A stretch of DNA of 64,000 bases from Pseudanabaena biceps (lineage in GTDB: Bacteria > Cyanobacteriota > Cyanobacteriia > Pseudanabaenales > Pseudanabaenaceae). Shown here piece by piece: positions 4,466 through 35,410 of the stretch. The position numbers and the translations under genes were made by a program. Location of the stretch: contig JAATWA010000003.1 of NCBI GenBank assembly GCA_013361095.1, positions 62,001-126,000 on the forward strand, read 5' to 3'. Within the stretch, counting starts at the first letter, position 1. Every line of letters starts with the position of its first letter. Under the pieces are notes generated by a model. It searched no databases, was not told the DNA's origin, and saw only the letters and a list, made by a program, of their open reading frames with translations.

Positions 4466-6670
4466 TTAGAATTTGGGATCTGCCAATTTTGCTAATCGCT
4501 TTGACAGATAAGTATATCTATGTCGATCGCTGACCTGTTTGACCGCCAGCCCGATCGCCTTCGATTCCCCGACGATGATGGCAAGCTTTCGCGCGCGCGT
4601 CAGCCCAGTGTAAAAAAGATTACGAGAAAGCATGAGAAAATGCTGCATGAACAGAGGCATGATTACCACAGGATATTCGCTGCCCTGTGCCTTATGAATT
4701 GTTGTCGCTCTAGCAAGAGCAATCTCATTAAGATCGGCATAATCATAGGTCACTTGCCGATCACCAAATACAACTGTGACTTCCCGTTCCTCCAAATCGA
4801 CACTCGTAATCGTACCAATATCACCATTGAACACCTCACGGTTATAGTCATTCACCTGCTGCATAATGCGATCGCCTAAACGAAAGATCGTATTGCCATA
4901 CTTAATTTCGGGCTTAATCACATCAGGCGGATTGAGAAGTTGTTGAAGGACAACATTGAGATTGCGCGTACCGACATCCCCTCTAGTCATCGGACAGAGA
5001 ACCTGCATATCTTGCTGAGGGTCAAAGCCCAGACTCGGTAACAACTCTGTAATAATGTCACAAATGCCCTGCTGTCCAGCTTCAGCATTGGGCATTTCTA
5101 GCCATAGACAATCGGATTGGGGCTGATTAGAGACTTTTTCCATCTGCGGAAACTTACCCGTATTGATACGGTGAGCATTCTGGATAATTTGACTTGCCTG
5201 AGCCTGACGAAACACCTCAGTGAGAGTGATTACAGGTACTTGCTGAGAATCAATTAAATCTTTGAGAACATTGCCCGCACCGACACTGGGAAGTTGATCG
5301 GTATCGCCGACAAGCAGCAGTTGAGAGCCTAATGGAATCGCCTTCACCAGAGAAAAAGCTAGAAACAGATCCAGCATCGATGCTTCATCAATACCGATCG
5401 CTTGAGCGGTCAGAGGATATTCCTGATTGCGTTTAAAGCCCATTGATTTTGGGTCAAACTCTAGAAAACGGTGAATTGTCTTCGCCTCACAGCCCGTGAC
5501 TTCCTGTAATCGTTGAGCCGCTCGACCCGTCGGCGAAGCAAGAGCAATCTCCTTACCCATCGCTTTCCAGAGCGCGACAATCGTGCGGGTGGTGGTAGTT
5601 TTACCTGTCCCTGGTCCACCTGTGAGAATAAGCACCGACGAATTTGCTGCCATCTCCACGGCTTCGCGTTGTTTGGGCGAGAGTTGGATATTTCTTTGGG
5701 TAGTGTAGCGATCGATCCAAGCTTTGACACGTTCAGAATCTGGATTGTGTTTTCGTTGCAATAGTTGATAAACCCGTTCGGCAAGATTCTGTTCGGTGTG
5801 GAAGTAAGTCGGTTTATAGCAGATGAACTCTCCTTCTAAGCCTTGCATCACTAAGCGATCGTTAACGGAGAGATGGAGAACAATTTTAGAGATAGTTTCA
5901 GGATCTGGTTGATAATCTTCGAGAGCAAGCAGTTTGATGGCTTTCTCTTCTAGTTCAGGGCGCGGTAAATAGCAATGACCATCTTCAGCAGCTTCCCCTA
6001 AACAATGGAAGATACCCGCAATGCTACGAAACTCAGAACTAACTTCAATACCAATATTCCGAGCAATCTGATCGGCAGTAAAGAAACCAATGCCATAGAT
6101 ATCTGTCGCCAGTTGATAAGGATTTTCGGAAACGGTCTGAATGGAATCATTGCCATAGTGCTTGAAAATCTTGACTGCATAGGTGGTGGATACTCCATGT
6201 CCTTGCAGAAATACCATCACCTCCTTAATCGCTTTTTGCGTTTCCCAAGCAGTTTTGATCATCTTCACCCTTTTCTTGGCAATACCAGGAACTTCAATCA
6301 GACGATCAATCTCATTCTCAATGATGTCAAGGGTATCCAAGCCAAAATGAGTGACGATGCGTTTAGCGGTGACGGGTCCCACGCCTTTAATCAGACCACT
6401 GCCCAGATATTTCTCAATTCCTGTAATCGTGGCGGGTTTGGTTTCACGGTATTGAGTGACTTGGAACTGGTCGCCAAACTTAGGATGCGATCGCCATGTG
6501 CCTTCTAGGGCAAGAGTTTGTCCTGCTTGGATATTGGCAAAGTTACCGATTACGGTGATTAGGTCTTGAGCCTTGGGTACTTTTAGCCGCGCCACGGTAT
6601 AGCCTGTCTCTTCGGAGTGAAAAGTTAGTCGTTCGATAATGCCTTGCAGATAGTCGATGTTGTCAGGCAT
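4466..6670 (-). CDS. recD2: RecD2-type ATP-dependent DNA helicase
   Basis: About 734 residues from ATG 6670 (MPDNIDYLQG); the first ATG at 6685 adds five residues. The N-terminal OB-like region (TVARLKVPKA) is followed by tandem helix-hairpin-helix segments near residues 95-190 (ITGIEKYLGSG, LIEVPGIAKKR), then Walker A LTGGPGTGKTTTT (around residue 355), DEASMLD (motif II), GDTDQLPSVGAG (motif III) and the C-terminal UvrD-like motif ATTIHKAQGSEYP. This is the RecBC-independent RecD2/TraA family, a 5'-3' helicase involved in repair and recombination. Normal length (700-760). It is divergent from the toxin-antitoxin pair at 6831. Confidence 0.93.
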   Translation of the reverse strand: MPDNIDYLQGIIERLTFHSEETGYTVARLKVPKAQDLITVIGNFANIQAGQTLALEGTWRSHPKFGDQFQVTQYRETKPATITGIEKYLGSGLIKGVGPVTAKRIVTHFGLDTLDIIENEIDRLIEVPGIAKKRVKMIKTAWETQKAIKEVMVFLQGHGVSTTYAVKIFKHYGNDSIQTVSENPYQLATDIYGIGFFTADQIARNIGIEVSSEFRSIAGIFHCLGEAAEDGHCYLPRPELEEKAIKLLALEDYQPDPETISKIVLHLSVNDRLVMQGLEGEFICYKPTYFHTEQNLAERVYQLLQRKHNPDSERVKAWIDRYTTQRNIQLSPKQREAVEMAANSSVLILTGGPGTGKTTTTRTIVALWKAMGKEIALASPTGRAAQRLQEVTGCEAKTIHRFLEFDPKSMGFKRNQEYPLTAQAIGIDEASMLDLFLAFSLVKAIPLGSQLLLVGDTDQLPSVGAGNVLKDLIDSQQVPVITLTEVFRQAQASQIIQNAHRINTGKFPQMEKVSNQPQSDCLWLEMPNAEAGQQGICDIITELLPSLGFDPQQDMQVLCPMTRGDVGTRNLNVVLQQLLNPPDVIKPEIKYGNTIFRLGDRIMQQVNDYNREVFNGDIGTITSVDLEEREVTVVFGDRQVTYDYADLNEIALARATTIHKAQGSEYPVVIMPLFMQHFLMLSRNLFYTGLTRARKLAIIVGESKAIGLAVKQVSDRHRYTYLSKRLAKLADPKF

Positions 6671-6792
6671 AAGGTGCAAACACAAAAACTACTGAGATCC
6701 TACAGAACATATTTGATATCTTAGAAACAATGGTTGAAACATTTGATATATAAGCGATTTAAGTGACAAATAATGGGAGATCGCTATAGTCT

Positions 6793-8550: not shown

Positions 8551-10329
8551 TTACATCGGTTCAAGATCTGAATACTTTTGCCGATCGCGCTCGAGTTGCT
8601 CTAGTTCGACTTGCAAGCTAGCAATTTCCGATGCAGATTTATTCCTACGCAAAATTGGAGTTTCTAGCAAAGCTTTCAGATAGCCAATCCTGCTGCCAGT
8701 CGCCGAGATAGGCTCGGATTTTGGCAGCTCATAGGGTCGCAAGCAATCGGCATTGGCAGTTTTCGGGGATAGCTTCTGAGAGATCGCTCCTGTAGAAATT
8801 TCAGTTTTTGGCGGACTTAGCCTGCCGTGGGTCTCAATCCACATCGGATCGCTACTTTTTTGCGGAGACTTGGGCGAGTGAGTAGGGGCTTGAAAATCAA
8901 CGTCGGCAAATTTTGGCAATTCTTGCCCTCGCAGGGGCGTTTCAGCAAGCCCTAACGCTTTATATAGGGCTTTTTCTGTAACGTCGCTTTCTGTATGGAT
9001 TTCAGCTTGTTCTTTCGGAGGGGCGATCGACTGGGGAAATTGGACTAAATTCTCTGTGTTTGGGCTGTTACTCGTTTCGGTGAATTCTGGATGCCATAGC
9101 TCTTTATTGTCATATAAGGTTTCAACCGATACTTTGGCGCTTTTGGCGATCGCTTGCGCCATGCCTCGGATTGTCGCGGGCATTTCTCCTGTTTTATTCA
9201 GTTCGATGACTACTGCTTTTATGCGTTCGAGCCGTTCTGCTTGTTTTCGCGCTTTTTTGTTCTCCATATTTTCACTTTCTTCGTCTTCGTCTGTTTGTTC
9301 GTTGTTTTTGCTTCCCCAGGGGAAGTGATGCTTCAGGCACCATTTGGCGATGTCTTTGGCTTTTTGGTCGAGTCGCTTGATGTCTCCGCAAAATGTCAGG
9401 TATCCTGCGGCGGTTTTGGCGGTTTTGGTGATGTATTCGGCGATCGCTTCGATTTCTTCACATCCCATGAAGACACGGGCATATTTGCCCATTAGGTATA
9501 GCAGTTGATTGCTTTGTCCTCTGTCTGTCCATCCTTCTTCGATTTGTTTTTCTAGGTCTTCTCGCCATTGGATTGGACGGCGGTTGTCTTTGGGCGGTTG
9601 ATAGTTAGATTTGGCTTCGGTGATCGCCTGTTTTAGGAGGTCGATGTCTTGATGCTCTTGCACGGTCAGCCATGTTTCGACAAATTGGCTGAGATCCCTT
9701 CCGACGATCTGGAGGTCGTTGTCGAGGAGGTAGCTGCCTGTTTGTAGTGGCAGTCGATGTCCGCTATATTCTGAGTCGTATTTTTTCGTGTTGGGGAAGG
9801 TTTCAATAACTCCTGATGCGATTTCGCAGTTATGGTTTTGCAGGCAGGCTTTAATCGCACAGGCGATGCCGAAGCTGGGTACTTCTTGCCATAGGGGGTA
9901 ATAGATGTGTAGTCCTTGGCTGTAGGAACTTTGGACGATCATCGGTCTGACTAGTCCAATGTCTTCTAGGGCTTGGAGGATAGTTTTAAATTTCTCGTGG
10001 TTGTTGCTGGGGTGGTAGGGGCTGCCTTTGTCGATGTCGATGAGGGCGTATTCGGTTTGGTTGCCAAATCTTACGCCGATTAAGGTTTCTGGGTCAGTCC
10101 AATAGTCGTACAAACGCCTTCCCGTAATGGGATAGCGCGTTTCGGTTTTCCATTCGGGTTTGTTCGTCCGATCTCTATTTTTGGCATAGATAAAATTCCA
10201 CGAATATGGGAAAAAACTCGCAAAGGTTTGCGCGGTTAGCTCTGTCGTGGTTAATGAGTTTGGCTCTAAGCCTTTGGTCGTAAATTTAAGATCGGCAGCA
10301 TCACAAATAAGATCTTTTTGAGAGGTCAA
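8551..10329 (-). CDS. Archaeo-eukaryotic primase-like protein (candidate plasmid primase/replication protein)
   Basis: 592 residues starting with TTG at 10329, no better ATG nearby. Around residues 90-100 is YALIDIDKGS, matching the hhDhD metal motif of AEP-superfamily primases; about 60 residues later QSSYSQGLHIYYPL matches the sxH motif; then GHRLPLQTGSYLL fits the third conserved block. The middle part (GRRPIQWREDLEKQI region, then AEYITKTAKTAAGYLTFCG) is helical and could be a PriCT-like segment; residues 340-592 are charged and proline-rich, probably disordered. Plasmid replication proteins of cyanobacteria often carry such a primase. Role as primary initiator is inferred from domain and from palindromes upstream. 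The TTG start overlaps the stop of a 27-codon ORF. Confidence 0.65.
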   Translation of the reverse strand: MTSQKDLICDAADLKFTTKGLEPNSLTTTELTAQTFASFFPYSWNFIYAKNRDRTNKPEWKTETRYPITGRRLYDYWTDPETLIGVRFGNQTEYALIDIDKGSPYHPSNNHEKFKTILQALEDIGLVRPMIVQSSYSQGLHIYYPLWQEVPSFGIACAIKACLQNHNCEIASGVIETFPNTKKYDSEYSGHRLPLQTGSYLLDNDLQIVGRDLSQFVETWLTVQEHQDIDLLKQAITEAKSNYQPPKDNRRPIQWREDLEKQIEEGWTDRGQSNQLLYLMGKYARVFMGCEEIEAIAEYITKTAKTAAGYLTFCGDIKRLDQKAKDIAKWCLKHHFPWGSKNNEQTDEDEESENMENKKARKQAERLERIKAVVIELNKTGEMPATIRGMAQAIAKSAKVSVETLYDNKELWHPEFTETSNSPNTENLVQFPQSIAPPKEQAEIHTESDVTEKALYKALGLAETPLRGQELPKFADVDFQAPTHSPKSPQKSSDPMWIETHGRLSPPKTEISTGAISQKLSPKTANADCLRPYELPKSEPISATGSRIGYLKALLETPILRRNKSASEIASLQVELEQLERDRQKYSDLEPM

Positions 10330-11286: not shown

Positions 11287-12123
11287 CTATGGTTTGCATT
11301 GACTTAAATATTGATTTGACTTGCCAATAGTTTTGGCCAGTTCTTCAATTGTGTTGAATTTTGACCATGCCGTTCCGTGTTTGCAATTTACATAGGTCGC
11401 AAAGCGGGTCAGGGTTCCGCTCAGCAAACGCAACAACATATCAAAGGCTTCATCGGCGATGCGGTGATTGATTGACATGGACTGCATGTTGGCGATCGCG
11501 GCTTCTTCGCAGGATAGGATTTGGTGGTTTGCTTTCTGATCGATCAGCAGATCTGGATGTTGGATTGCTGGTGATGGTAGCGCCGTACAGAAGGTAGGAA
11601 CCCTAAATGCTCCTTCCATTCTTTCGGCGCTATCTACTGAACCCAATAGAACTTGCCCTGATTCGTAATGATTGCCGCAGTCTAGCCAGAATACAGTTCT
11701 ATCGTTTTGTAAAACTTTGGCTATTTCTGCTCTGGCTTCTGGATTGTCCACGGCTCCAATACAAATTGTTAGATGTTTCCATCGCGATATTGCCATGTCT
11801 GCTCGAAATTCGGCGGAGATTGCGTTGATTTCAAGTCCCCATTGCCATCCATACCTTGCTGCTAATACCGATGCTTTGGGAAGCTCAAGGTCGTTGGGAG
11901 TAAAGTTTTGGCGAGGAATATTCGTTGCTTCTACCCGATCTGGATCGATGAAAGTAACTGAGACTTTTTTCCCCGCTTGTTTTTGGACATAGGCAATCCG
12001 TGGCAAGTTCACAGCTAACCATCCGCCTGTACCACCACAGCCGATGAGAATTAGGTCTAGTTCATCATAGGCTGGTAGCAGGATAGGGACGGCTGCGGCA
12101 AATGGTAATGATAGATTTGACAT
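11287..12123 (-). CDS. PRTRC system ThiF family protein (E1-like adenylyltransferase)
   Basis: About 278 residues using the ATG at 12123, which overlaps the PRTRC-A stop as TAATG (a start two codons earlier is possible). The N-terminus has LDLILIGCGGTGGWLAVNL, the ATP-binding GxGGxG of the ThiF/MoeB/E1 superfamily, then FIDPDRVEATNIPRQNF (ATP/Mg contacts) and ELPKASVLA (conserved Lys). WLDCGNHYESGQVLLG around residues 170-185 contains the Cys typical of the PRTRC ThiF group. E1-like enzymes adenylate the C-terminus of a ubiquitin-like partner. It is last in the cassette and lacks a fused E2 or Ub domain. Assignment rests on motifs plus the characteristic neighbours. Confidence 0.87.
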   Translation of the reverse strand: MSNLSLPFAAAVPILLPAYDELDLILIGCGGTGGWLAVNLPRIAYVQKQAGKKVSVTFIDPDRVEATNIPRQNFTPNDLELPKASVLAARYGWQWGLEINAISAEFRADMAISRWKHLTICIGAVDNPEARAEIAKVLQNDRTVFWLDCGNHYESGQVLLGSVDSAERMEGAFRVPTFCTALPSPAIQHPDLLIDQKANHQILSCEEAAIANMQSMSINHRIADEAFDMLLRLLSGTLTRFATYVNCKHGTAWSKFNTIEELAKTIGKSNQYLSQCKP

Positions 12124-12812
12124 TACCAATCCTCCGCTAAGCAGTCTGTTAGTTGTGCTGGCAACTCCAAGATCCCTGTGATTGCGGTTTCGTAGAAATG
12201 ACCGTAAATTCCCACTCGCATCCTGATCTGTGGGTTGGAGAAGATTTCACCTATTACTCCGTATAACCGAAAGCCCGTCTCATCGCGATTATCTGTTTCG
12301 GAGAAGTAAGCTCTCATGCCATGATGGGAATGGATTTCGATGATCGCTTTGCCGTAGGTGCTGTTCGCACTGTTATCCAATGGCTTACAGGATGTAGCTG
12401 TTTGCTCTTGTTCGGGTATTGCGAGCTGCCAATTGCCATTTTCAAAATATAGGTGAAATACAATTTCGACTGGGCGATTATTAGTGTCGCAAGCAATGCG
12501 GGAAGCTTCGAGCATTTGCTCTACTAGCGTTACGGGGACTGCGGGGTATGTGAGCTGCACGGATGCTGATATCGCCTTTAGACCTTTGGCTTTGTAATAC
12601 GACACTGGCGAGATCGCTGTCAAACCTTGCCTCTTGGCTCTAACAAATGTGCCGTTGCTGCCATAGACATACTCATACATTGAGGTTGGGGCAATTTCAG
12701 GCAGGTTTTGATTGGTAGCAATGATGTGCTGAATTAACGGGGGGTTTTGGACAGTTGGCAATACGGGATTTGCTGTTGCTACGTGCTTTTGGATATGTTC
12801 TAATAATTTCAT
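12123..12812 (-). CDS. PRTRC system protein A (JAMM/MPN+ isopeptidase-like)
   Basis: About 229 residues from ATG 12812 (MKLLEHIQKH), which overlaps the stop of PRTRC-B by 4 nt; an upstream in-frame ATG at 12857 would overlap B more deeply. Near the C-terminus, EIHSHHGMRAYFSETDNRDE fits the JAMM zinc-protease signature H-x-H-x7-S-x2-D, with the acidic residue before the first His. JAMM enzymes cleave isopeptide bonds of ubiquitin-like modifiers, or process their C-termini. In PRTRC cassettes, protein A always accompanies the ThiF and E2-like proteins. A role in removing or maturing the Ub-like protein C is inferred from family knowledge. Confidence 0.83.
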   Translation of the reverse strand: MKLLEHIQKHVATANPVLPTVQNPPLIQHIIATNQNLPEIAPTSMYEYVYGSNGTFVRAKRQGLTAISPVSYYKAKGLKAISASVQLTYPAVPVTLVEQMLEASRIACDTNNRPVEIVFHLYFENGNWQLAIPEQEQTATSCKPLDNSANSTYGKAIIEIHSHHGMRAYFSETDNRDETGFRLYGVIGEIFSNPQIRMRVGIYGHFYETAITGILELPAQLTDCLAEDW

Positions 12813-13537
12813 TGGTTGATTACCATGTTGATTGCTACCTTTACGGAACTGCCACATTGGACGAGATCGTTGATGGGGTAGCGGTTGGATTTCTGTAGTT
12901 GGATCAGTTTTTCGCGGATGTCTTCTGGATGAGTATTTGATTTGCTATCCACAAGATGATTGTTAAATGGTGCTGTCATAAACATCTGCCATGCTTTAGA
13001 TAGGCGCTCTATCCCTTCTGCATAGTTGCTGAGATTATTCTCAACTCCCATGCAAATCCTGCCATCTCCATAGATGTTTGGTAATGGCACATGGTAAATA
13101 GGTGCTTCGGGTTCAAAGGTTTTTTGCTTGGTTGCCCAGATGTAGCAAGTGTCACCGCATAGCATAAATACTGTTCCCATCATGGGAATGGTCAGGGAGA
13201 TTCGCTCTCCATCACCCTGTAGGTCGGCGAAGGTAAATGTCCGTTTTGCGGGTGGCATAAACTGCACATACCAATGTCCTTGACGACAAATACCCAATCG
13301 TTTTACTCCGTCGGGTATCCAGCCTGAGTCGATACGTTCATGTTGAAAGGCAGCTCTCACTGTTTCAGGGGATAAAAACTTGTAAGTTTCTCGTTCCCTC
13401 TGCCGATATTGAAAGCAGTAATGTCCTCCTTTCAAAAATAGGAGTTTTGCCTCTGCTTCGATTAATGGATAGCCATCGGGTTTGAGGGCATCTTGGAGTG
13501 GATCTAGGATTAGCATTGCTGCTTCCTCATGCTGCAA
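12809..13537 (-). CDS. PRTRC system protein B (E2-like, Prok-E2 family D type)
   Basis: 242 residues; ATG at 13537 overlaps the end of protein F by 11 nt, a second ATG follows at residue 8. The block HVPLPNIYGDGRICMG (residues 149-164) is the conserved PRTRC-B segment in which the Cys (residue 162) corresponds to the active-site Cys of the E2-like fold. After it, MFMTAPFNNHLV is the second conserved block. In the published view of bacterial ubiquitin-like systems, this family is a divergent E2 conjugating enzyme. It would take the activated modifier from the ThiF protein. No biochemistry is shown by sequence alone. Confidence 0.82.
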   Translation of the reverse strand: MQHEEAAMLILDPLQDALKPDGYPLIEAEAKLLFLKGGHYCFQYRQRERETYKFLSPETVRAAFQHERIDSGWIPDGVKRLGICRQGHWYVQFMPPAKRTFTFADLQGDGERISLTIPMMGTVFMLCGDTCYIWATKQKTFEPEAPIYHVPLPNIYGDGRICMGVENNLSNYAEGIERLSKAWQMFMTAPFNNHLVDSKSNTHPEDIREKLIQLQKSNRYPINDLVQCGSSVKVAINMVINQ

Positions 13538-14279
13538 GATAGTGGTTGTGTATTTCTGGATTCGTCTCTTTGCATCTGTTCCAAAGCCTGACCACCTTGA
13601 TACAATTTGCCGAGTCTCTATCTAACCATTCGATAAATTCTCGATACTTTTGCATAATTGTTTGGGCTTCTGTATATGCTTCTCTCAGCGTATCTATTAC
13701 TTCTACTGTCCAATGAGCATCTACAATGTCATTTTCATAGGAGATATCCAGCCATAGATTGCCTGTGGACTGGGTGAGCATGTCTAGCGCTATGGGTAAG
13801 TGGGTGATTGCCCCTCTTAACTTTTTGCATTCTTGACTTAGTTTTTGATAATTGACGTAACTCGCGATAGGGGGCAAGTCCTGTTCCAGTTCTCCCTCAA
13901 TGTCATGCCATGTATCACCATCTAATCCATGAATTAGGCTCATCAAGAATTTCTCGGTCGCTCCTAGTTCTTCAAAGTTATCGTAATACCATGAAGTACC
14001 AAGGGGTTCCACGGGAATATAGGAGATACGTTCTGGTTCTGCCAGTAATAATGGCAATGGGAAAAATTGCTCATCCATTAAGGTCAGAAATTCAAACTCT
14101 TTTTCACTATAGGTTTCAAGGCTAGTAGCTTGAATACTAGCTTTTGATTGTTGATATTCGTCTGGATAGTAATACTGGTACAGTTGCAGCATCGTTGCTC
14201 GTTGCTGTATCGCTTCGATGTAATCCACGGCATTGTCTGCGGTGCGTGAGACTAACCACTCGAATTTGGTTTTGTTCAT
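13527..14279 (-). CDS. PRTRC system protein F-like
   Basis: 250 residues, mostly acidic and helical (pI clearly low; many Glu/Asp and aromatic residues such as YQYYYPDEY, FFPLPLLLAEPERI). I do not recognise motifs directly; the call is by position. In PRTRC operons the usual order is E, C, F, B, A, ThiF, and this gene occupies the F slot, overlapping B. ATG at 14279 follows one base after the stop of the preceding 74-aa gene. It could instead be a lineage-specific unknown protein. No membrane segment or signal peptide. Confidence 0.5.
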   Translation of the reverse strand: MNKTKFEWLVSRTADNAVDYIEAIQQRATMLQLYQYYYPDEYQQSKASIQATSLETYSEKEFEFLTLMDEQFFPLPLLLAEPERISYIPVEPLGTSWYYDNFEELGATEKFLMSLIHGLDGDTWHDIEGELEQDLPPIASYVNYQKLSQECKKLRGAITHLPIALDMLTQSTGNLWLDISYENDIVDAHWTVEVIDTLREAYTEAQTIMQKYREFIEWLDRDSANCIKVVRLWNRCKETNPEIHNHYLAA

Positions 14280-14280
14280 C

Positions 14281-14505
14281 TTAGAATCCTCGAATCGTCA
14301 TCGGTGCGGCGATTGGGCTGGCTTTTTTTAAGCTGTCGATTGTCCTTTGGATCGACTGGCTCTGTTTTTGCGATTTTTTGGTTGCTTCGGTATAGTCCTC
14401 TAGCCCGATTTCGCTTAGCTCGATTAACTGAGACCCTTGCTGTTGGTACTGCTCGATTTCCCAGAGTATTTCTAGCAAGGGATTGATTTCTTCAGGTGCT
14501 TTCAT
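14281..14505 (-). CDS. Hypothetical 74-aa protein in the PRTRC cassette
   Basis: Small Glu/Gln-rich protein (EILWEIEQYQQQGSQLIEL) predicted to be helical, coiled-coil-like; ends GAAPMTIRGF-like with a short hydrophobic tail. Its ATG at 14505 lies five bases from the end of the IS630 element, and before insertion it would have started 23 nt after the stop of protein C. The IS therefore cut away its upstream region and probably its ribosome binding site. Unrecognised family; it may be an N-terminal extension or partner of protein F. Confidence 0.5.
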   Translation of the reverse strand: MKAPEEINPLLEILWEIEQYQQQGSQLIELSEIGLEDYTEATKKSQKQSQSIQRTIDSLKKASPIAAPMTIRGF

Positions 14506-14510
14506 CAGAC

Positions 14511-15807
14511 TAGTACAAGGCGGCTAAAGTGAAGAAACATACTTTAGACGGTTAAAGCCTTACCTTTATAAGTCCATTTAAAAGGCTTAGCCATAGTACG
14601 GTTGAAGTAGTCAATAAATAAGATAATGCGAGACTTCAAATCGGCTTGAGAGATAAAGTTACCGCGTCTGAGTAACTTACGCATCAAGATCCCAAACCAA
14701 ATCTCAATCTGATTAAGCCAAGAACAATGCTTGGGAGTAAAATAAAAAACAATACGATGATTTTTATCGGTTAAGAAATCAGTCCTTGTCTGCATGGATT
14801 TGAGGATGCCGCACTTACCTTTGACACCTAAATCAATCTCCAATCTTTCGACTTGTGCAACATAGCGAACGAGGGATTCCGATTGATGAGTGTTGAGACA
14901 ATCCATAACTAAATGCCATTTGTTAGCATCAGGATTAGTGGCTATAGTTTGTTGGACATGAGTAAGATAGTCAACTTCAGTACGTGTATCGCCCACAGAA
15001 GCCTTGATGACTAAACCCGTGGCGACATCAAAACTGGCGATTAAGGTTTGAGTACCATGTCGAATATATTCAAACTCGCGACGGTGAATCTTACTAGGTT
15101 CTAAGGGCTTATCAGGATATTTGCGCTCAAGGGCTTGGATACCCGTCATTTCATCAAGACTAATAGTTTGTTCACCTAAGGCAGCTCGCTCTATTGCATT
15201 TAAGTAATTGTCAGTAATGGCTGTTACTTTTTGTTCAAACAATGGGTCAGGCGCTGGATTCAGTCAGTAACCTGATTGATGCGGTTTGATATCTGCTTCG
15301 GCGAGTAAGCGTCCAACGTGCCTCGGTGATATCGTGGTCACAATCCCGCGTTGAATCATTTCATCGGCGAGTTCGCGACTTGTCCATTGGCTGATTGGCC
15401 GACCACTCTCCTCTGGACTTTCACAGGCGATTGCAAATAAGTGCATGATTTGCTCAAGCTCGAATGTCGGTGGTGTACCCGAACGCTCAGCATCTTTCAA
15501 ACAATCCAACACACCTATGTCTTTTTCCCGTCCCCACACCCATCGGTCTCGCCACAATCGGGCACTTTTGCGGCTGATATCTAATTCCCGCGCTATCATT
15601 GCTTGACTGTATCCTTGCGAGGCTAAAACAACAATCTTTGCTCGTTGGGCTATTTGCTGCGGTGTACTGTGTCGATTGATTATCTGTTCCAATTCTTCTT
15701 GTTCCAACTCTTCTAAATGCAATGCTTTTGTAGATACCGTAAACACTAATTTTTGACCGTTATTTCATTTCTTCTTATAGTATCTTCACTTTAGCCGCCT
15801 TGTACTA
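14511..15807 (-). mobile_element. IS630-family insertion sequence with perfect 25-bp terminal inverted repeats
   Basis: The terminal repeats 14511-14535 and 15783-15807 are exact complements (they open TAGTACAAGGCGGCTAAAGT). Both ends finish in TA, the target dinucleotide duplicated by IS630/Tc1-mariner elements. Total 1297 bp with both TA copies. It sits between PRTRC protein C and the 74-aa gene, next to a HIP1-like GCGATCGC. Length and repeats are normal for a complete element, but the transposase carries an in-frame stop. Confidence 0.9.
14544..15746 (-). pseudogene. IS630 transposase interrupted by an in-frame TGA
   Basis: Two ORFs, 15264-15746 (helix-turn-helix part, ends KPHQSGY) and 14544-15242 (DDE part, EMTGIQALERKYPDKP then HLVMDCLNTHQSESL and WLNQIEIWFGILMRKLL), are in the same frame, separated by one TGA at 15266-15264 and continuing LNPAPDPLFEQK. 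Homologues normally have Trp here (HRxRYWLNPPP), so one TGG-to-TGA change explains the split. Because the frame is unchanged, programmed frameshifting is not needed. Either the element is recently inactivated, or TGA is read through. The DDE part keeps D, D and E in the expected order. Confidence 0.8.
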
Positions 15808-15823
15808 GCGATCGCTGTCTCAT

Positions 15824-16036
15824 TCATCGCACACCTTTTGTCCCTGCGAGTTTGCAGACATCCACGAGGATATCGCCGTTGGCTTGCACGGTTCTTTCGA
15901 TTTTCGAGTTCTTGATTCCTTCAAAATATAGGCTGAGAGTTGCCCTAATTTGTTCGTCACTGCTGCCGATTTCAGGTGGTACGGGAATCGTCTGTCCTTC
16001 AATCTTGATGTTATAGTTCACTGCTGTTCCACTCAT
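15824..16036 (-). CDS. PRTRC system protein C (ubiquitin-like)
   Basis: A 70-residue protein starting ATG at 16036, overlapping the stop of the preceding gene by 4 nt (ATGA). The sequence begins with a beta strand, VNYNIKIEGQTIPVPPE, continues EQIRATLSLYFEGIKN and ends in DVCKLAGTKGVR. This is the PRTRC-C pattern: a compact beta-grasp, ubiquitin-like fold (family Prok_Ub). There is no di-glycine tail; the end is GTKGVR, so if it is a conjugated modifier, it would need a different attachment or processing by protein A. Immediately downstream the cassette is broken by the IS630 insertion. Confidence 0.82.
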   Translation of the reverse strand: MSGTAVNYNIKIEGQTIPVPPEIGSSDEQIRATLSLYFEGIKNSKIERTVQANGDILVDVCKLAGTKGVR

Positions 16037-16350
16037 AATAGTGCCATCTGTTCTGATTTTGTCGATACTAGGGATCGTTTGGTGGTTGTGATTAGTTCTG
16101 GTCTTTGTTCTTCAACCATTACGATTGGTTCTTGATTTGCCAACTGACTGGTGGCATAAGCTTGAACGATCTGGGCTAGGGGCAAAGGAATTGGCTTTAG
16201 TTCGTTCAAGCTAACTGTCTGAATCAATGGCATGCCCTGTTCGCGACAAATGGAAATTATCACCATTCGCTCGGTTGAGTCGGCTTCTGGTAATATTTCA
16301 ATGCACAGCTTTAGTCTGTCTTTGTCTAGGTCGGTTACTGGATTGGTCAT
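16033..16350 (-). CDS. PRTRC system protein E-like
   Basis: About 105 residues from the ATG at 16350; a GTG start at 16404 would add 18 residues, but the N-terminal leader looks non-coding. The pattern LCIEILPEADSTERMVIISICR followed by PLIQTVSLNELKPIPLPLAQ resembles the opening of PRTRC protein E (a beta-rich start, then 'PLxLxGTPxELD'). The call is partly positional: it precedes protein C by a 4-nt overlap, where E sits in known cassettes. The C-terminal third is Ser/Thr-rich. A ParB-like component, often the first gene of PRTRC operons, is not adjacent. Confidence 0.45.
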   Translation of the reverse strand: MTNPVTDLDKDRLKLCIEILPEADSTERMVIISICREQGMPLIQTVSLNELKPIPLPLAQIVQAYATSQLANQEPIVMVEEQRPELITTTKRSLVSTKSEQMALL

Positions 16351-16446
16351 GGCTTTTTCGCTTATATTCTTATGGCTTTCTACACGAGTACTGGCGCTAG
16401 CCACTTTTAAGCAATAATAGAGTTTGAGAATTAGAAGTAAAAAAAA

Positions 16447-16474
16447 GTAAAATCCTCACAGTTGAGGATTTTAC
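16447..16474 (-). terminator. Rho-independent terminator after the 145-aa gene
   Basis: Perfect 12-bp stem GTAAAATCCTCA/TGAGGATTTTAC with a CAGT loop. On the minus strand it is followed by a run of eight T (the complement of 16439-16446). The gene 16507-16944 ends 32 nt upstream. The opposite side also has TTTT, so it may work both ways. Confidence 0.75.
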
Positions 16475-16506
16475 TTTTAAGTTGCTTTCAAGATTAGTTT
16501 GCTCAA

Positions 16507-16944
16507 TTAAGCAGCAAGTTGCCTGTATCTTGGTTTCACGTTAGGTTTAATGCCAACAGGAATCGGGATACGGGCTGGGAATACGCGCAGATGTTCTTGG
16601 GCAAATACTCGAAACTTGGCGGTATGGTGTCTACCGCTATTGTTGACTGTGAGGTAGACTCGCTCATCTAGAATTGCTTCGATGGTTGCATCTGGTAATT
16701 CTGGGCGGGGATAGAGTGGGAAGATATTCGCATGTTCTTCCAAGAATAGTTCCACAATCTTAGCAAAGTGTTGTTTCGTCCGTTCAATGTGAAGACTAGC
16801 AATCAATTCGGTTCCCAGCCATTGCGCGAATGCTTTCTGCTCGATGCTGACTGCATATTTCTTGGCTTTGGCTACCCATTCAGTTCCGTGATTGGTGGAT
16901 CTGGGCGATAGCAAACATTGGTAGCCTTTGTGAGTGTAAATCAT
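16507..16944 (-). CDS. Hypothetical 145-aa protein
   Basis: Unrecognised soluble protein, slightly basic, with His-rich segments (SGRHHTAKFRVFAQEHLRVF) and proline-rich tail PARIPIPVGIKPNVK. ATG at 16944; it is followed by its own terminator and preceded by the ssb terminator, so it forms a single-gene unit between ssb and the PRTRC cassette. The mid region (LGTELIASLHIERTKQHFAK) is helical. Function unknown. Confidence 0.55.
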   Translation of the reverse strand: MIYTHKGYQCLLSPRSTNHGTEWVAKAKKYAVSIEQKAFAQWLGTELIASLHIERTKQHFAKIVELFLEEHANIFPLYPRPELPDATIEAILDERVYLTVNNSGRHHTAKFRVFAQEHLRVFPARIPIPVGIKPNVKPRYRQLAA

Positions 16945-17002
16945 CGTTACTTTCTCTTTCTTTAGTTGGGCATGAGCCTTAAGCGACAGCGCCTAAAAAA
17001 CA

Positions 17003-17054
17003 AACAGCTATAGAGAGCTTGGATAGATATCTATCACTACTCTCTATAGCTGTT
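17003..17054 (-). terminator. Terminator downstream of ssb
   Basis: 15-bp perfect arms AACAGCTATAGAGAG (17003-17017) and complement (17040-17054), with an inner palindrome GATAGATATCTATC. On the minus strand the stem is followed by TGTTTTTTAGG, four nt after the ssb stop begins the stem. Confidence 0.75.
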
Positions 17055-17057
17055 CAA

Positions 17058-17465
17058 CTAGAAGTCGTCGTCGTAAACGGTTGATTCTTCATACTCTTCG
17101 TCTTCAGCAGACTTTCTCACAACATCAATGAAGTTCAGAGATTGGGCATGAATCACAGTCCGCGCATGATGCTTCTTGTCTTTCTTGGACTTGTATTCTT
17201 CGGGTTGAGCGAGAACTCCCGTAACTTCGACAAAGCGTCCAGATTGCGCTCTCTCTTCGGCATATTCCGCAGTTCCATTCCAGCAAACTACTTTTACCCA
17301 GAGTGGTTCTTGGTCGATCCAATTACCTTCTTTGTCTCGGCGAGGTTTGGGCTGTATGGCGAGGCTGAAGTCTAGTACGTCTTTGCCACTGGTTTTGGTT
17401 TTACGAACTTCAGATACGTTACCGACATAGCCAGAGAGAACAACGAGATTAGTTGAATTACACAT
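17058..17465 (-). CDS. ssb: Single-stranded DNA-binding protein
   Basis: 135 residues with one OB fold: NLVVLSGYVGNVSEVRKTKTSG, then DFSLAIQPKPR, WVKVVCWNGTAEYAEE and RFVEVTGVLAQPEEY. The acidic tail ends YDDDF, resembling the SSB C-terminal DDxPF tip that binds partner proteins, but without the Pro. Shorter than the usual chromosomal cyanobacterial SSB, so probably a plasmid copy. Gene order ssb downstream of a Sak4-like ATPase suggests joint work in recombination or replication. Its own terminator follows. Confidence 0.88.
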   Translation of the reverse strand: MCNSTNLVVLSGYVGNVSEVRKTKTSGKDVLDFSLAIQPKPRRDKEGNWIDQEPLWVKVVCWNGTAEYAEERAQSGRFVEVTGVLAQPEEYKSKKDKKHHARTVIHAQSLNFIDVVRKSAEDEEYEESTVYDDDF

Positions 17466-17531
17466 GAGTTTTTTCCTTCTATTTAGGAATCAGGTCATGG
17501 ACTTCCACGCGATAGCGTTCTTCAAAGAAAT

Positions 17532-17569
17532 GAATAACTCTCTAATTTAATTTAGATAGAGGGTTATTC
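17532..17569 (-). terminator. Terminator downstream of the Sak4-like ATPase
   Basis: 13-nt arms GAATAACtCTCTA (17532-17544) and TAGAGgGTTATTC (17557-17569), one wobble, AT-rich loop; the minus strand continues ATTTCTTTG. Located 12 nt after the gene's stop. Confidence 0.6.
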
Positions 17570-17581
17570 ATTTTGCGATTT

Positions 17582-18784
17582 CTAGAATTCGAGTTGATTG
17601 GTGATGTCTTTGGCAATTTCGGCATATTGTCCTGGATGCCGTGATGTCGATATGTCGATCAGGTTTTGGGCTAGTTCGGCGGTGTATCCTTTGAAGCCTA
17701 GCCATTCTCGCATCAGTGCTTCGCAGACGGCTTTGATTTGTTCGGCGGTCATATTTTCACTGTTGAATTTGGGTTTCAATCCGCTTTCATCGGCTCCATA
17801 TAGGTCAATGCTGGTTTCAATCACTTTGCTGATGTGTTGCTGGGTGATTGCCAATAATGCTTTGAAGGCGGCTTTGGCTGGGTTGTCGGGTTTGCTGTGA
17901 TGGGTTTGGGTATTGGTAGTTGGCTTGGATTCAATGACTGTGGCGATATGACCGTTGGTACTAGCAATCTGAGCGATATGACCATTGGTACTAGCAATCT
18001 GGGGGATATGACCGTTGCTGCTGGCGACTGCTGCTAGTTCGGACTGTTTTTGTGGCTCCTGTAAGACTGGATTGACGGGTACATTGATGATCGGGATAAA
18101 CGCATTTCTGTTGACTGGGGTTTCATCACTCAGCCATGTTTGAATCATTTCGGCAAATTTCTTGCCTGGTTTTGGGAAGATGCCATTGCTGATTTCAGGA
18201 CATCTGCTCTTGGATATGGTCAGGGTGTTCTGGTCATCGAGTAAGCCACAAATGTCTAGTTCATATTCACTGCCTTCCTTTTGGATCGGGGCTGTGCCAA
18301 TCTTTCGGACACTGGTGATTTTCTGCTTACCACCAATTTCAGTCGCGCTGTAGTCGTACTCAATCTTTGACCGCATCGTGACGATGATGTGGCAACTAGA
18401 GCTGATGATTTTGTCCCATAGTTGGCGTTCGATGGGGCGGATTCTTGCCCAGTTCCTCACGTCACTACCTACTGCGTCTAGTTCGGCGTACCATGCATGG
18501 GATAGGGAGTCGATGATTAGGTAATCAAATCCTGATTCTTCGGCGCTTTCAATGGCGTTGTAATATTGGCTGGGTCCAAATTTGGTTAGTTCTAGTGATT
18601 TGAAGTCAAACAGGTTGGCGTATTTACGGCTAGAGCCATATTCGGTGTCGATCAGTCCAATCTTTTTCCCCAATATTGTTGCTAGTTGGAGAGCGGTGTA
18701 GGTTTTGCCACAGCCTGGTGGGCCATACAAAGCCATGCGTAGTTTGATGTTTTCTTTCGTTGCTTTCTGAAATGAGTAGGTCAT
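17582..18784 (-). CDS. Sak4-like RecA-fold ATPase (AAA_24 type)
   Basis: 400 residues. Walker A YGPPGCGKTYTAL (around 20-32), Walker B FDYLIIDSLSHAWYAEL (around 85-100) and a later HIIVTMRSK (motif like RecA/RadA sensor strand). Residues 135-165 contain KQKITSVRKIGTAPIQKEGS, typical of phage/plasmid AAA_24 ATPases related to Sak4 single-strand annealing proteins. Residues about 240-290 are a Ser/Asn/Gly-rich linker with three imperfect copies of ASTNGHI. The C-terminal 100 residues are helical. Sak4-like proteins work with SSB, and ssb lies directly downstream. A replication or recombination-loader role is inferred. Confidence 0.75.
   Translation of the reverse strand: MTYSFQKATKENIKLRMALYGPPGCGKTYTALQLATILGKKIGLIDTEYGSSRKYANLFDFKSLELTKFGPSQYYNAIESAEESGFDYLIIDSLSHAWYAELDAVGSDVRNWARIRPIERQLWDKIISSSCHIIVTMRSKIEYDYSATEIGGKQKITSVRKIGTAPIQKEGSEYELDICGLLDDQNTLTISKSRCPEISNGIFPKPGKKFAEMIQTWLSDETPVNRNAFIPIINVPVNPVLQEPQKQSELAAVASSNGHIPQIASTNGHIAQIASTNGHIATVIESKPTTNTQTHHSKPDNPAKAAFKALLAITQQHISKVIETSIDLYGADESGLKPKFNSENMTAEQIKAVCEALMREWLGFKGYTAELAQNLIDISTSRHPGQYAEIAKDITNQLEF
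17945..18027 (-). repeat. 30-bp tandem repeat inside the Sak4-like gene
   Basis: Two full units (17945-17974, 17975-18004) and most of a third begin GATATGACC and encode TNGHI-type repeats in the linker. Units differ at few positions, consistent with recent slippage; length variation between relatives is expected. Confidence 0.7.
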
Positions 18785-18864
18785 AGATATTTCTCCTTAT
18801 TAGTTAATAGGTAAGTGGGTTTGGTAAATACTTGGAATTTTTCCTTGCGAACCTCGCTAGAGGA

Positions 18865-18907
18865 AAAGCGAGAATAGGCGGCGCAATGCGCCGCCTATTC
18901 TCGCTTT
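18865..18907 (-). terminator. Strong GC-rich hairpin after the ViaA-like gene
   Basis: Perfect 20-bp stem (18865-18884 and 18888-18907) with a 3-nt AAT loop; core GGCGGCGC. On the minus strand it is followed by TTCC rather than a long T-run, so it is a strong stem but an imperfect intrinsic terminator. Confidence 0.6.
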
Positions 18908-18916
18908 AAGTGCTTT

Positions 18917-20374
18917 TTAGATGCTGTATAGACAGTCGGATACTTCGCTGTCGTCTGTGAGATCTGTTATTTCTACATAGCGATCGCATAAGTTGCCGAT
19001 CGTGCTTTCGTAGTTGCTGAGGTTGCCACCAGCAATCAAGATGCCGTAGCAACTAAATTCATACTTTTTCCTGTCTGCTTGCCATTGCTCCATGAAACTA
19101 GATGATGGGGTGTCTAGTCCGTCGGTGATTAATACCACGTCGGCTTTCTTGGTATGTTCGTGCTGTTGGATCGATGCTAAGGCTCCCGTCAGAGCGGCGG
19201 TAAAACTGGTGCTGTCACCGTTGTAGAACTTTTCGATGCAGTCAATTACGCGATTAGTGTCGGGGATTTCCCCTGCAAAGTCGTCGATTCGCTCTACCTT
19301 GCCTGTGAAGTGCAAGATGCGGCAATGGCGCTTTTGGCTTACAGCAATACTCAATAGCGCTAGGGCGATCGCTTTGCTCCAGATTTCTTCTTTCCCTGTC
19401 ATTGACCCACTTGAATCTAGACAGATAACGATTGGTCCTCTGGCAAGGGGTTCGCGGCTGATTAGTTCTCGTTGTAATAGCGATCGCTCAATATAGCCTT
19501 TGGCGAATATGGGGAATAGTGCGGGTTCGGTAAGCTTGACTAGCTCGCAGGGCAGTAGTCGGATTAGGTCGTTGCCTGTGGTTACGCCGATGATTTCGGT
19601 TCGTCCTTCTTTGACTTTGCTGCGTTGTATCTTGGCTGCGATCGCGATTTTCTTGCCTGCAAGTTCAGCGATCGCTTGAAGTTTTGGCGATGCTTGAAGG
19701 CGTTGGGCGAGCTGGATTTTATCGGCGATTTTAAGTTGGGTTTCGTTGCTGTAATTGCTGCTGCCGCTATAGGCGGCTAAGCTTTCGCCGATCGCTTGCA
19801 TTTCTGCTTCGGCTTTGGCTATGCCAATTAGCAGTGCGGTTTCGATTTCGGCATTGCTAATGGAGTCAGCATAAGCTTCACTTGCTAGTCGCGCTTCTAG
19901 TCCTTTTTGCTTTAACTGTTGAATCTTTTGCATCAGCCCAGCATTGGGTGTTTGTCCTTGCAATGCTTCAAAAATACCCCGAAGCTGATTTCTGATTACT
20001 TCTGGGTCTTCTAGTGGTTCGGTTGGTTCGGGCAGCATTTCGGCGATCGCGATACACAGTGCAGTTGTGCCGATGCCTGAGAGAAATTCATCTCCATTCA
20101 GGCGGTTGCTAAATTTCTGGAATGCTTCTAATTCGCTCATCTGTTGATGGATGGCGATCCAGATTTTGTTTTCGGGTTTGATGGCGCTATCTTCTAGTCG
20201 GTTGGGTTGGCGATCGTACAGGCGATGATAGGTTTCGCTGACAAAGGTTTCAAAGTTGTAGACTTTGCTTTCCCCTTCTTCAATCACTTCGCTCAGTCTG
20301 GATGATTTTTCTTTGAAGTCATTCACACATAACTTTGTCCATTTGGGGATTACATACACTAATGGTTCTTGCAT
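18917..20374 (-). CDS. ViaA-like VWA-domain protein
   Basis: 485 residues, close to the 480-490 of ViaA. The first 290 residues are helical; the C-terminal VWA domain begins with VICLDSSGSMTGKEE (MIDAS D-x-S-x-S around residue 315) followed by Thr in DSTSFTAALTGAL and Asp in VVLITDGLDTPSS, so the metal site is complete. It is downstream of a RavA-like MoxR ATPase by 63 nt. In enterobacteria RavA-ViaA is a MoxR-VWA chaperone pair acting on membrane and respiratory complexes; here the plasmid-like setting suggests a different client. No membrane segment is seen. Confidence 0.78.
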   Translation of the reverse strand: MQEPLVYVIPKWTKLCVNDFKEKSSRLSEVIEEGESKVYNFETFVSETYHRLYDRQPNRLEDSAIKPENKIWIAIHQQMSELEAFQKFSNRLNGDEFLSGIGTTALCIAIAEMLPEPTEPLEDPEVIRNQLRGIFEALQGQTPNAGLMQKIQQLKQKGLEARLASEAYADSISNAEIETALLIGIAKAEAEMQAIGESLAAYSGSSNYSNETQLKIADKIQLAQRLQASPKLQAIAELAGKKIAIAAKIQRSKVKEGRTEIIGVTTGNDLIRLLPCELVKLTEPALFPIFAKGYIERSLLQRELISREPLARGPIVICLDSSGSMTGKEEIWSKAIALALLSIAVSQKRHCRILHFTGKVERIDDFAGEIPDTNRVIDCIEKFYNGDSTSFTAALTGALASIQQHEHTKKADVVLITDGLDTPSSSFMEQWQADRKKYEFSCYGILIAGGNLSNYESTIGNLCDRYVEITDLTDDSEVSDCLYSI

Positions 20375-20437
20375 TTTGAGTCTCTATTAGGTTGAGAAAG
20401 ATGAGAGAGCAGGTAATCTGCTCTCTGTTGATTGTTT

Positions 20438-21655
20438 CTATGCGCCGTACATGATTTCACTGACTTTCGCTAGTAATGGTTTCTTCTTGGTTTCGATTTC
20501 AGCGATCGCTTGTTGGGCTTTCTTTGCCCTGTTCGGGTGTTGAACAATCAGGCTTTGTAGTCTGTCGATCATGTTTCGCATATCGGACAGTAATCCCGAA
20601 CCTTCGGTTGCCCAATCGTCTTGCTGCTTCTTTGTGCCATAAACTGGACAGTTGCCCAAGTCTGAAAGCTTTTCGGTGATGGCAGCGAGGATTTCTTGGG
20701 CTTGGATATTCACGGGATTGCCCACTTTGGCGACGATTTTTCTGATCAGTGCTTGCTCTCTGGGATGGTTCCAGATTACATGGTTGAGAATTTCAAAGCT
20801 GTCTTCGCTGACTTCGGGTTCTTCTTGCAAATAGGCATAGGCTTTGAGAATGTTGACAATCTGCACGTATTTTCTGGTGCTGACGATGAAGTTTTCTTTC
20901 TTCAGTTCCCGTTGTAGGTCGATTAGGGAGTCGATGACTGGGGTGGGGAAGGGGACGTTTTTCACGGCGGTTTGCATTTGCTCTAGTTCGGCTAGGCTCA
21001 GCATAGTGGTGATCTGGGGGGCGGCGATGTTGCTGGTTTTGCGTAGTAGCAATGTTCGCAGGTCTTCGTCGCCTAGATAATCGACCATGTACCGCAAGCT
21101 CAGTCGATCCCAAAATGCTCCATCTTCTTCGCCGTCTAGGAGTTCGTTGGAACAGCCAATCATGGTGATTAATGGTGATTGCAGTTTGGTTTTGCCGTTT
21201 AGAAATTCCCGTTCGTTCATCAGTCCTAATGCGGAGTTACGGACAATGCTATTTGCCTTTCCAATTTCATCCATGAGGGCAAGGTGCGCTTCAGGTAACA
21301 TGGCTTCGGTGTCGCGCACGAATTTGCCTTTTTGCAGTTCGGCGAGGTCGGGTGCGCCTAGTACTTCTTCGGCGACGGTGGTTTTGGTCATCAGGTAATG
21401 AAAGAATGTGGTTCCTGTGATTGCGTCTGAGACGGCTTTTGCAAGCTCGGTTTTGCCTGTTCCTGGTTTGCCTCCTAAGAAAACATGCATTTTCGATAGC
21501 AGTCCGACGATGATTAGGTCGATCGCTTCGCTGCGGTCTAGATACGCGGCTTTCAATTGTTCTCGCAGTTGTTGTAGTTTCTCGGATGGGGATTTATGGG
21601 TTACGGTCAAGGCGGTTACATGTCCGTTTGTTTTCGCGATTTCGGTGGCGATCAT
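20438..21655 (-). CDS. RavA-like MoxR-family AAA+ ATPase
   Basis: 405 residues. VFLGGKPGTGKTELAKAV is Walker A (residues 56-72), LALMDEIGKANSIVRNS is Walker B with the RavA-type continuation, MIGCSNELLDGEEDGAFWDR is the sensor 1 and arginine-finger region, and the lid is followed by a helical C-terminus of the RavA type. ATG at 21655 with an AAGGAAC site. Upstream of the ViaA-like gene in the same direction. MoxR ATPases remodel targets chosen by a VWA partner. A magnesium chelatase role (BchI) is unlikely because there are no chlorophyll neighbours and the sequence is RavA-like. Confidence 0.82.
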   Translation of the reverse strand: MIATEIAKTNGHVTALTVTHKSPSEKLQQLREQLKAAYLDRSEAIDLIIVGLLSKMHVFLGGKPGTGKTELAKAVSDAITGTTFFHYLMTKTTVAEEVLGAPDLAELQKGKFVRDTEAMLPEAHLALMDEIGKANSIVRNSALGLMNEREFLNGKTKLQSPLITMIGCSNELLDGEEDGAFWDRLSLRYMVDYLGDEDLRTLLLRKTSNIAAPQITTMLSLAELEQMQTAVKNVPFPTPVIDSLIDLQRELKKENFIVSTRKYVQIVNILKAYAYLQEEPEVSEDSFEILNHVIWNHPREQALIRKIVAKVGNPVNIQAQEILAAITEKLSDLGNCPVYGTKKQQDDWATEGSGLLSDMRNMIDRLQSLIVQHPNRAKKAQQAIAEIETKKKPLLAKVSEIMYGA

Positions 21656-21730
21656 TTTTAAGTTCCTTTTATTTTTTATCTTTGATGTTTTGATGGGGAG
21701 TAGCGCGTTGGCTACTCCCGAGATCCTTCG

Positions 21731-26343: not shown

Positions 26344-26874
26344 GATTTGCTCTAGTTTATGTTTTCTGAATACCTTGAGGCAATTACGCCCCATCCTACC
26401 CGTGTCTAAGGGGTTAATCCTCTCGTCTGGTCTACCGTAATTTCGACAAATTACAGACCTTAGACTCGTTTTTATTCGTTCCGTCCAAAAGATTGATATG
26501 TCCCTTTAGATGTAGCCAATTCAATCGCCAGAACCCCTTACTCATGCTGCTAATCAAAAGAAGTTGCGGCGGGGTGTTAATCTCTGGCGAGGTCAGATTT
26601 TAAGGATTGCGTCTGCCTACTCCTAGATTGCTTTTCTAGGCTCTATTTCATCTTGGGGACTCCCTTTAGCGCCAGTGTTACTTGCAATTAGTATCTGATT
26701 GCGCCCTGTTCCCAGCTTCAGCCTCCAAGTAACGAGCTTGGTCACTGTGGGCAGATAAGGAGTCAGTCTTGAGTTTAGACGGTAAGGCTTACACTTACAT
26801 CGTCTGGACAGTTAAGCTAGACTTGGGAGTCTTGACTCTAGCGGTTATGTACGGACTGGTTACCGTGATTCACG

Positions 26875-34976: not shown

Positions 34977-35404
34977 TGCAAGAGTTTCAACTAAGGGTTG
35001 TACCCACTGACAACAATAATTTTGCCTTAGAGCTATACCAATGTGCTTACAAGCAAGCGGGTGAGAAAAAGCGCCCTGCGGCAAAGCGAATCGGTAAGCT
35101 CAAGGGTAATGCGTTAGTACTGACCAGACAGACGATCTATGCTGCATTGAAAGCAAATAAGTACGATCCAAAAACTTTGAAATGCGATCGCCAAGCGCCC
35201 TATGTCCTTGATGAACAGTCAGGGGTAAGTTTGGCTTTGCTATTTCAGACGGTACAGCCCCTCTCGAAGGAGGAGAGAATCGCCAATATTGCCAATGGGG
35301 TAACGGCAATGAGTAATGAAGAAGCGCATTATTGGTTTGCGAAGGTGTCCAATGGGTCTAAAAGAAATGCTTTAAAGGCAATTCGGGTATTATTGGGAGA
35401 CTGA
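34976..35404 (+). CDS. Small partner of the DUF499 ATPase
   Basis: 142 residues, ATG overlapping the ATPase stop by one base. Basic N-terminus (KKRPAAKRIGKLKG) and a C-terminal helical segment (AHYWFAKVSNGSKRNALKAI) ending in LLGD. It accompanies DUF499 genes in similar loci (I recall DUF7680, not certain). Its tight coupling says it acts in the ATPase complex, perhaps as an adaptor that binds nucleic acid. No catalytic motif is seen. Next gene is convergent, 6 nt away. Confidence 0.6.
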   Translation: MQEFQLRVVPTDNNNFALELYQCAYKQAGEKKRPAAKRIGKLKGNALVLTRQTIYAALKANKYDPKTLKCDRQAPYVLDEQSGVSLALLFQTVQPLSKEERIANIANGVTAMSNEEAHYWFAKVSNGSKRNALKAIRVLLGD

Positions 35405-35410
35405 ATCTAT

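Follow-up and report, generated by a model that had tools for sequence, protein, structure and literature searches.

PRTRC cassettes are annotated gene sets (TIGR03734-TIGR03742) that occur on many plasmids, e.g., pMOL28 of Cupriavidus metallidurans. Annotated loci begin with a ParB-like gene, and the literature searched gives no function or substrate for the cassettes. BilABCD is another bacterial system with a ubiquitin-like protein. There the JAB protease BilC cuts the modifier, BilA, and so opens its C-terminal glycine (PMC11354881). Proteins that bind the beta sliding clamp carry a C-terminal motif, reported as QLxLF (PMC4549789) and as QL(S/D)LF (PMC9690074). The locus described here is a PRTRC-like cassette in Pseudanabaena biceps (assembly GCA_013361095.1, contig JAATWA010000003.1). 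The stretch analyzed, referred to as the window, is 64,000 nucleotides long and corresponds to positions 62001-126000 of a 297-kb plasmid-like contig (C2) of a Pseudanabaena-type genome of 5.57 Mb. The cassette runs from 16350 down to 11287 on the minus strand and contains the genes E, C, X, F, B, A, and ThiF. It is read here as a plasmid-borne ubiquitin-like conjugation system of the PRTRC kind that would act at the replication fork through a clamp-docked E protein. This reading is tentative and is given slightly less than an even chance.

The gene order is that of the annotated PRTRC cassette of pMOL28, except that X is inserted between C and F. An earlier sequence-only reading of the window had placed the genes at the same positions, and the open reading frames (ORFs) bear this out, all on the minus strand. 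The order it gave, E-C-F-B-A-ThiF, agrees with pMOL28 and overlooked the extra gene X. It also took the segment to be plasmid-like. This holds for contig C2, and homologues of B are found on 41 plasmid records, nearly all cyanobacterial, of which 24 are typed as conjugative.

Three of the proteins are recognizable enzymes. ThiF, the E1-like adenylyltransferase, matches the PRTRC_ThiF profile at 2.4e-39 and Pfam ThiF at 7e-14. A, the JAMM isopeptidase, matches PRTRC_A (2e-17) and Prok-JAB (1e-6), and the E2-like protein B matches PRTRC_B (2.5e-14) and Prok-E2_D (3e-28). Active sites were aligned across 17-19 sequences from cyanobacteria, Chloroflexota, Nitrospirota, Deinococcus, and proteobacteria. 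In ThiF, the G.GG.G, D, N..R, K, and SC elements are invariant (18 sequences) and all are present in the window protein; the SC cysteine is the putative catalytic residue by its position. The E2 cysteine of B lies in a PN...C context and is invariant in 19/19 sequences, as is the preceding Asn, and window B has both. The JAMM motif E...HxH...S..D of A (EIHSHHGMRAYFSETD) is kept in all true A proteins, the window protein included; one row of that alignment (L049) is the wrong gene and is not counted. The active sites on which the sequence-only reading had staked its case are thus intact in ThiF, B, and A. By profile comparison, A and B align with proteobacterial sets across most of their length. 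Sequence searches of the PDB returned no match for B and, for A, only matches at chance level (E of at least 0.02), none of them in the JAMM part.

C is the predicted modifier and ends in AGTKGVR. The sequence-only reading correctly noted that GTKGVR lacks a di-glycine. Its view that the route of conjugation was therefore open misses the conserved end of the family, GxKG, which is followed by anything from no residue to a whole domain. Among relatives of C, the final Gly is found in 20/20, and the Lys and the first Gly in at least 90%. No residue follows GxKG in Planktothrix, P. galeata pPg_01, D. proteolyticus, Methylomonas, and Aromatoleum, while two to five residues follow it in Pseudanabaena, Oscillatoria, and Burkholderiales. 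The Manganitrophus C (L050 5244-5561) has a very basic tail of 37 residues after GRKG. X, too, ends in GF, and the SGF that closes this tail may be coincidental or what is left of an X-like domain. In ten cyanobacterial genera (Nostoc, Anabaena, Tolypothrix, Leptolyngbya, Chroococcidiopsis, Gloeothece, Trichormus, Gloeocapsa, Scytonema, and Brasilonema), C and X form a single-frame fusion. X is a separate gene in the window, yet fused to C in most other cyanobacterial plasmids. On a FastTree phylogeny of B and ThiF, unfused C forms appear at two places, with Oscillatoria and Planktothrix nested among fused forms.

A modifier precursor that is cut after the glycine of GxKG would be expected to keep this motif constant while tolerating any sequence, or none, behind it, and the C-X fusions point to a concrete maturation reaction. 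Because GxKG is the family-wide end and the residues after it vary, the VR of the window protein is most likely a propeptide removed by the JAMM protease, by analogy with BilA and BilC. The window C, E, F, and X have no direct Pfam or NCBIfam match. The alignment of C relatives, compared with PRTRC C by hhalign, gives an expect value of about 1e-6 and is aligned through the GxKG end. The PRTRC_C and Prok_Ub models each match 7/20 C-family members, of which only 6 are non-cyanobacterial. C had been called recognizable as ubiquitin-like; no model recognizes it on its own, and its tie to PRTRC_C and Prok_Ub runs through the alignment of its relatives.

A ThiF-like adenylating enzyme together with a modifier ending in a single Gly is also found in ThiS and MoaD pathways (PMC1779556). 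The cassette could in that case serve a sulfur-carrier or cofactor pathway, in which ThiF would make a C-thiocarboxylate and A would regenerate or trim C. The presence of an E2-like protein with an invariant PN...C argues against such a pathway, as does the neighborhood, where no rhodanese or cofactor-biosynthesis genes were seen. A pathway of this kind is very improbable.

Protein E is strongly divergent between clades, yet a short motif closes the protein. In most cyanobacteria the tail is QLTLF, QISLF, QLSLF, QLKLF, QLNLF, or QITLF; in most Pseudanabaena it is QMALL or QMTLL, and the window protein has QMALL. A clamp-type tail (QLxLF, QIxLF, or QMxLL) is found in 27/30 distinct cyanobacterial E tails. 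The compared DNA contains 1180 different stop-terminated frames of 100 or more amino acids; Q[LIM]xL[FL] lies within the last 8 residues of 29 of them, and 26 of these are E. Outside this set, Brasilonema adds one distinct tail, and that of Scytonema repeats the Trichormus tail. Counted by gene, it is present in 12/13 E, 0/14 F, 0/14 B, 0/12 A, and 0/13 ThiF proteins. The tail suggests a beta-sliding-clamp-binding motif by which E may dock on the clamp, and it points to a concrete place for PRTRC-type function, the replication clamp. In E. coli, the clamp motif of MutS is QMSLL, which resembles the window tail and is not counted as evidence here. The genome has two beta-clamp matches, one on the chromosomal contig C17 and a second (DNA_pol3_beta_3) on a small contig (C20:473-832).

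The proposed mechanism would begin with C made as a precursor. A would trim the residues after GxKG, which are VR in the window and all of the X domain in C-X fusions, and expose a C-terminal glycine. ThiF would then adenylate this glycine and load C onto its own conserved cysteine. B would take C on Cys162 and hand it to a lysine of the target, and A could reverse the conjugation by removing C. The C-terminal motif of E would place the conjugation machinery, or else the protein on which it acts, at the beta sliding clamp. With E at the clamp, the expected targets are plasmid proteins of replication or repair that associate with the clamp. In its fullest form, the proposal is a clamp-tethered ubiquitin-like conjugation on bacterial plasmids, convergent with PCNA-linked ubiquitylation, in which E directs C to fork proteins and C is matured by the JAMM protein after GxKG. 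This fuller form is possible and is put forward with considerable reserve. The cassette may tag proteins at replication forks, somewhat like the tagging of eukaryotic PCNA. If true, ubiquitin-like tagging would be coupled to DNA replication in bacteria, independently of eukaryotes.

Several points weigh against a conjugation system at the clamp. The QMALL tail of the window E is weaker than the QLxLF form. Three cyanobacterial E proteins have non-canonical tails: RSLFDLPS in L052 and QQxLQL in the divergent Pseudanabaena L038 and L044. For the E proteins of Burkholderiales PRTRC cassettes, the last residues are (D/N)LxxLL(G), which could count only as a degenerate motif, and clamp docking may therefore be confined to the cyanobacterial branch. 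No E3-like protein was identified. The sequence-only reading had proposed structure prediction of B and C. For B, an AlphaFold2 model from seven close sequences reached a predicted local distance difference test (pLDDT) score of only 35.6 and is unfit for a fold search. For C, the model is beta-beta-alpha-beta-beta with one predicted domain, but its confidence is modest (pLDDT 65.7) and a Foldseek search of the PDB gave nothing with E <0.1, leaving the ubiquitin fold unproven. Expression of the window copy is uncertain because of an insertion element in X. The evidence as a whole is computational.

The relation to PRTRC is one of kinship. All PRTRC scores fall under the NCBI curated cut-offs (ThiF 135.1 vs. 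144.75, A 63.4 vs. 101.8, and B 53.2 vs. 131.45). E and F were named by position. Neither has an NCBIfam match to PRTRC E or F, hhalign of the cyanobacterial against the proteobacterial sets is insignificant, and a test for homology of E and F to their PRTRC namesakes found none; the correspondence is in position only. The sequence-only reading had noted that no ParB gene adjoins the cassette, which is confirmed, and suggested looking for it elsewhere on the replicon. A ParB protein is encoded at C2:253355, approximately 180 kb off; it has a general ParB domain and was ruled out as the missing PRTRC ParB. Genome-wide, only general ParB domains were found, the best scoring 103.5 bits against a cut-off of 278.6. 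Judged by its sequences, the cassette is a relative of PRTRC, a cyanobacterial branch, and not a formal member or equivalog, because its scores are under the cut-offs, it lacks the PRTRC ParB, and E and F cannot be shown to belong to the same families. What stands of the earlier PRTRC assignment is a ubiquitin-like cassette of the PRTRC type whose active sites match those of its relatives.

The ParB-like first gene of annotated PRTRC loci lends itself to another function for the same conjugation cassette, i.e., plasmid partition, copy control, or incompatibility, with the E tail as a generic interaction motif or degron. The distribution of cassettes fits such a replicon-specific function, as P. 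galeata CCNP1313 has four plasmids with a cassette and its own B on each, and P. biceps has two cassettes besides that of the window. However, neither ParB nor ParA is adjacent in the window or in its Pseudanabaena relatives, no PRTRC ParB scores above the cut-off genome-wide, and a degron would not be expected to keep the first residue, Q, of a QLxLF tail constant. A role in partition or copy control is rather unlikely. The features of the locus and its surroundings are listed in Table 1.

Table 1. Features of the cassette, the inserted element, and flanking genes (window coordinates).
Feature	Position	Strand	Remarks
592-aa protein	8551-10329	-	No family match; downstream, roughly in the place of the CyRepA1 replication gene of sister plasmids
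ThiF, E1-like adenylyltransferase, 280 aa	11287-12129	-	GCGGTGG, D..N.PRQ, K, invariant SC
A, JAMM isopeptidase	12123-12857	-	EIHSHHGMRAYFSETD; Prok-JAB
B, E2-like	12809-13537	-	PNIYGDGRIC with invariant Cys162; Prok-E2_D
F (named by position)	13527-14279	-	ORF and comparison with relatives
X, remainder from Met10	14281-14505	-	Small, probably helical; C-fused in many cyanobacteria
IS630-family element, 1293 bp	14513-15805	-	Ends GTACAAGGCGGCTAAAGTGAAGA, near-identical
TA target duplication of IS630	14511-14512 and 15806-15807		Flanks the element
Two IS630 transposase ORFs	15264-15746 and 14544-15242	-	Same orientation as the operon
X, 5' end (MNETAI..)	15808-15827	-	Overlaps the C stop; severed by the insertion element
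C, predicted ubiquitin-like modifier, 70 aa	15824-16036	-	Ends GTKG-VR
E (named by position)	16033-16350	-	ORF, ATG start at 16350; small core domain, variable linker, tail QMALL
Palindrome, 16-bp arms	16443-16478		Between H145 and E, T-rich sequence after; consensus match only; possible terminator of upstream genes or operator at cassette start
Plasmid-backbone genes SSB, RecA-like AAA_24, VWA, MoxR, DUF6744	17058-22774	-	Upstream of the cassette, conserved

The cassettes have replication genes as neighbors. The backbone DUF6744-MoxR-VWA-AAA-SSB-H145-E-... is common to sister Pseudanabaena plasmids, which have CyRepA1 genes downstream. In Anabaena, Chroococcidiopsis, and Trichormus the cassette follows a primase/polymerase gene, and elsewhere a Gp157 gene. 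Downstream lie dnaN, gamma/tau, and DNA polymerase genes in Anabaena cylindrica and holA in Leptolyngbya. One relative is on a 5.7-Mb contig. Scans of viral_contigs with B found no relative, a neutral outcome. In the window, a RecD2-type helicase (4466-6685) is encoded near the cassette and a group II intron reverse transcriptase/maturase at 24799-26394. Farther on are an Hma-like defense set (31752-45998), with an HmaC-like DUF499 ATPase (2e-103), an HmaB-like DNA methylase, and a PLD/SNF2 helicase, and a GmrSD-like protein (46225-48042). In Oscillatoria pOSC7112.01 (L055 6828-9642), genes of a cyclic-oligonucleotide-based anti-phage signaling system (CBASS), DncV-like and SAVED, adjoin the cassette on the opposite strand.

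These neighbors bear on whether the cassette is plasmid cargo for anti-phage defense, like BilABCD or the Cap2/Cap3 proteins of type II CBASS. The enzyme kinds are alike (E1, E2, JAMM, and a ubiquitin-like protein), and ThiF weakly matches PADLOC E1-E2 models, though A and B match no PADLOC model. Defense genes do occur nearby, next to the cassette in the Oscillatoria plasmid and 15-30 kb off in the window plasmid, but the steady neighbors are replication and single-stranded DNA genes, and the whole backbone is shared by sister plasmids, unlike movable cargo. A defensive function is quite unlikely.

The sequence-only reading made no mention of a 1.3-kb IS630 insertion within the interval. The element breaks X after codon 6, and the X frame can restart at Met10. 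X is uninterrupted in sister cassettes (loci L004-L011, L023, and L032). Thirteen near-identical full-length copies of the element, that of the window included, are spread over plasmid-like contigs and the chromosome. Two fragments of IS630, at C2:262494-265139 and 288031-290676, appear at mirror-image positions, suggesting either that contig C2 contains a large inverted repeat or that its assembly folded back on itself.

With its X gene broken, the window copy could be a decaying remnant, silenced by IS630 and its polar effects, while a second cassette does the work. The copy at C2:241k is complete. Decay is seen elsewhere in the family. In the third P. biceps cassette (C1:56000-63700, L032), A stops at residue 96, ThiF is absent, and a gene for a PIN-domain-like toxin follows. 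On a 109570-bp contig (G428:C2), the degenerate cassette L073 has a B interrupted by stop codons and an E that is truncated, and the cassette of pPg_01 is likewise broken. Against this, the downstream frames F, B, A, and ThiF of the window are all intact, an in-frame ATG of X lies beyond the element, and the operon strand of IS630 has no predicted intrinsic terminator. Pairwise ratios of nonsynonymous to synonymous substitution rates (dN/dS) among Pseudanabaena cassettes are 0.03-0.38 for all cassette genes, lowest for C (0.03-0.09) and 0.11-0.15 for F. They indicate purifying selection, averaged over time that mostly predates the insertion. Decay of the window copy is distinctly improbable. 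The C1 cassette also looks mosaic, as its MoxR-VWA-AAA-SSB proteins are identical to those of the window (12569-21566) and its H145-to-B proteins match those of C2:241k (L033); this may reflect either plasmid recombination or misassembly.

The cassette can be set beside four known systems. Type II CBASS Cap2/Cap3 has E1-like and E2-like activities and a JAMM counterpart. In that system one protein combines the E1 and E2 parts, and the conjugated protein is the CD-NTase itself; the window cassette has a separate ubiquitin-like protein and no CD-NTase of its own. BilABCD is similar in its separate modifier, E1, E2, and JAMM proteins, and its JAMM protein trims the modifier precursor to a C-terminal Gly (PMC11354881), as is proposed for A and C. 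It differs in an E1 with two adenylation domains and a Cys domain, two ubiquitin-like domains in BilA, and a CEHH motif in BilB. The tandem BilA and two-domain E1 BilD have no counterpart in the window, where C has 70 amino acids and one predicted domain, ThiF has 280 amino acids, both are minimal, and E, X, and F are additional. Eukaryotic PCNA ubiquitylation by Rad6/Rad18 would, if E docks, share the conjugation of a modifier at the replication clamp; this is analogy only, E having no homology to an E3. The fourth system is PRTRC. Both are plasmid-borne with the order E-C-F-B-A-ThiF, B, A, ThiF, and C are homologous by profile, and C of both ends in GxKG. The window cassette is set apart by its sub-cut-off scores, the lack of a PRTRC ParB, and the extra X or C-X fusion, and the cyanobacterial cassettes by an E and F not detectably homologous to those of PRTRC and an E that ends in a clear clamp motif.

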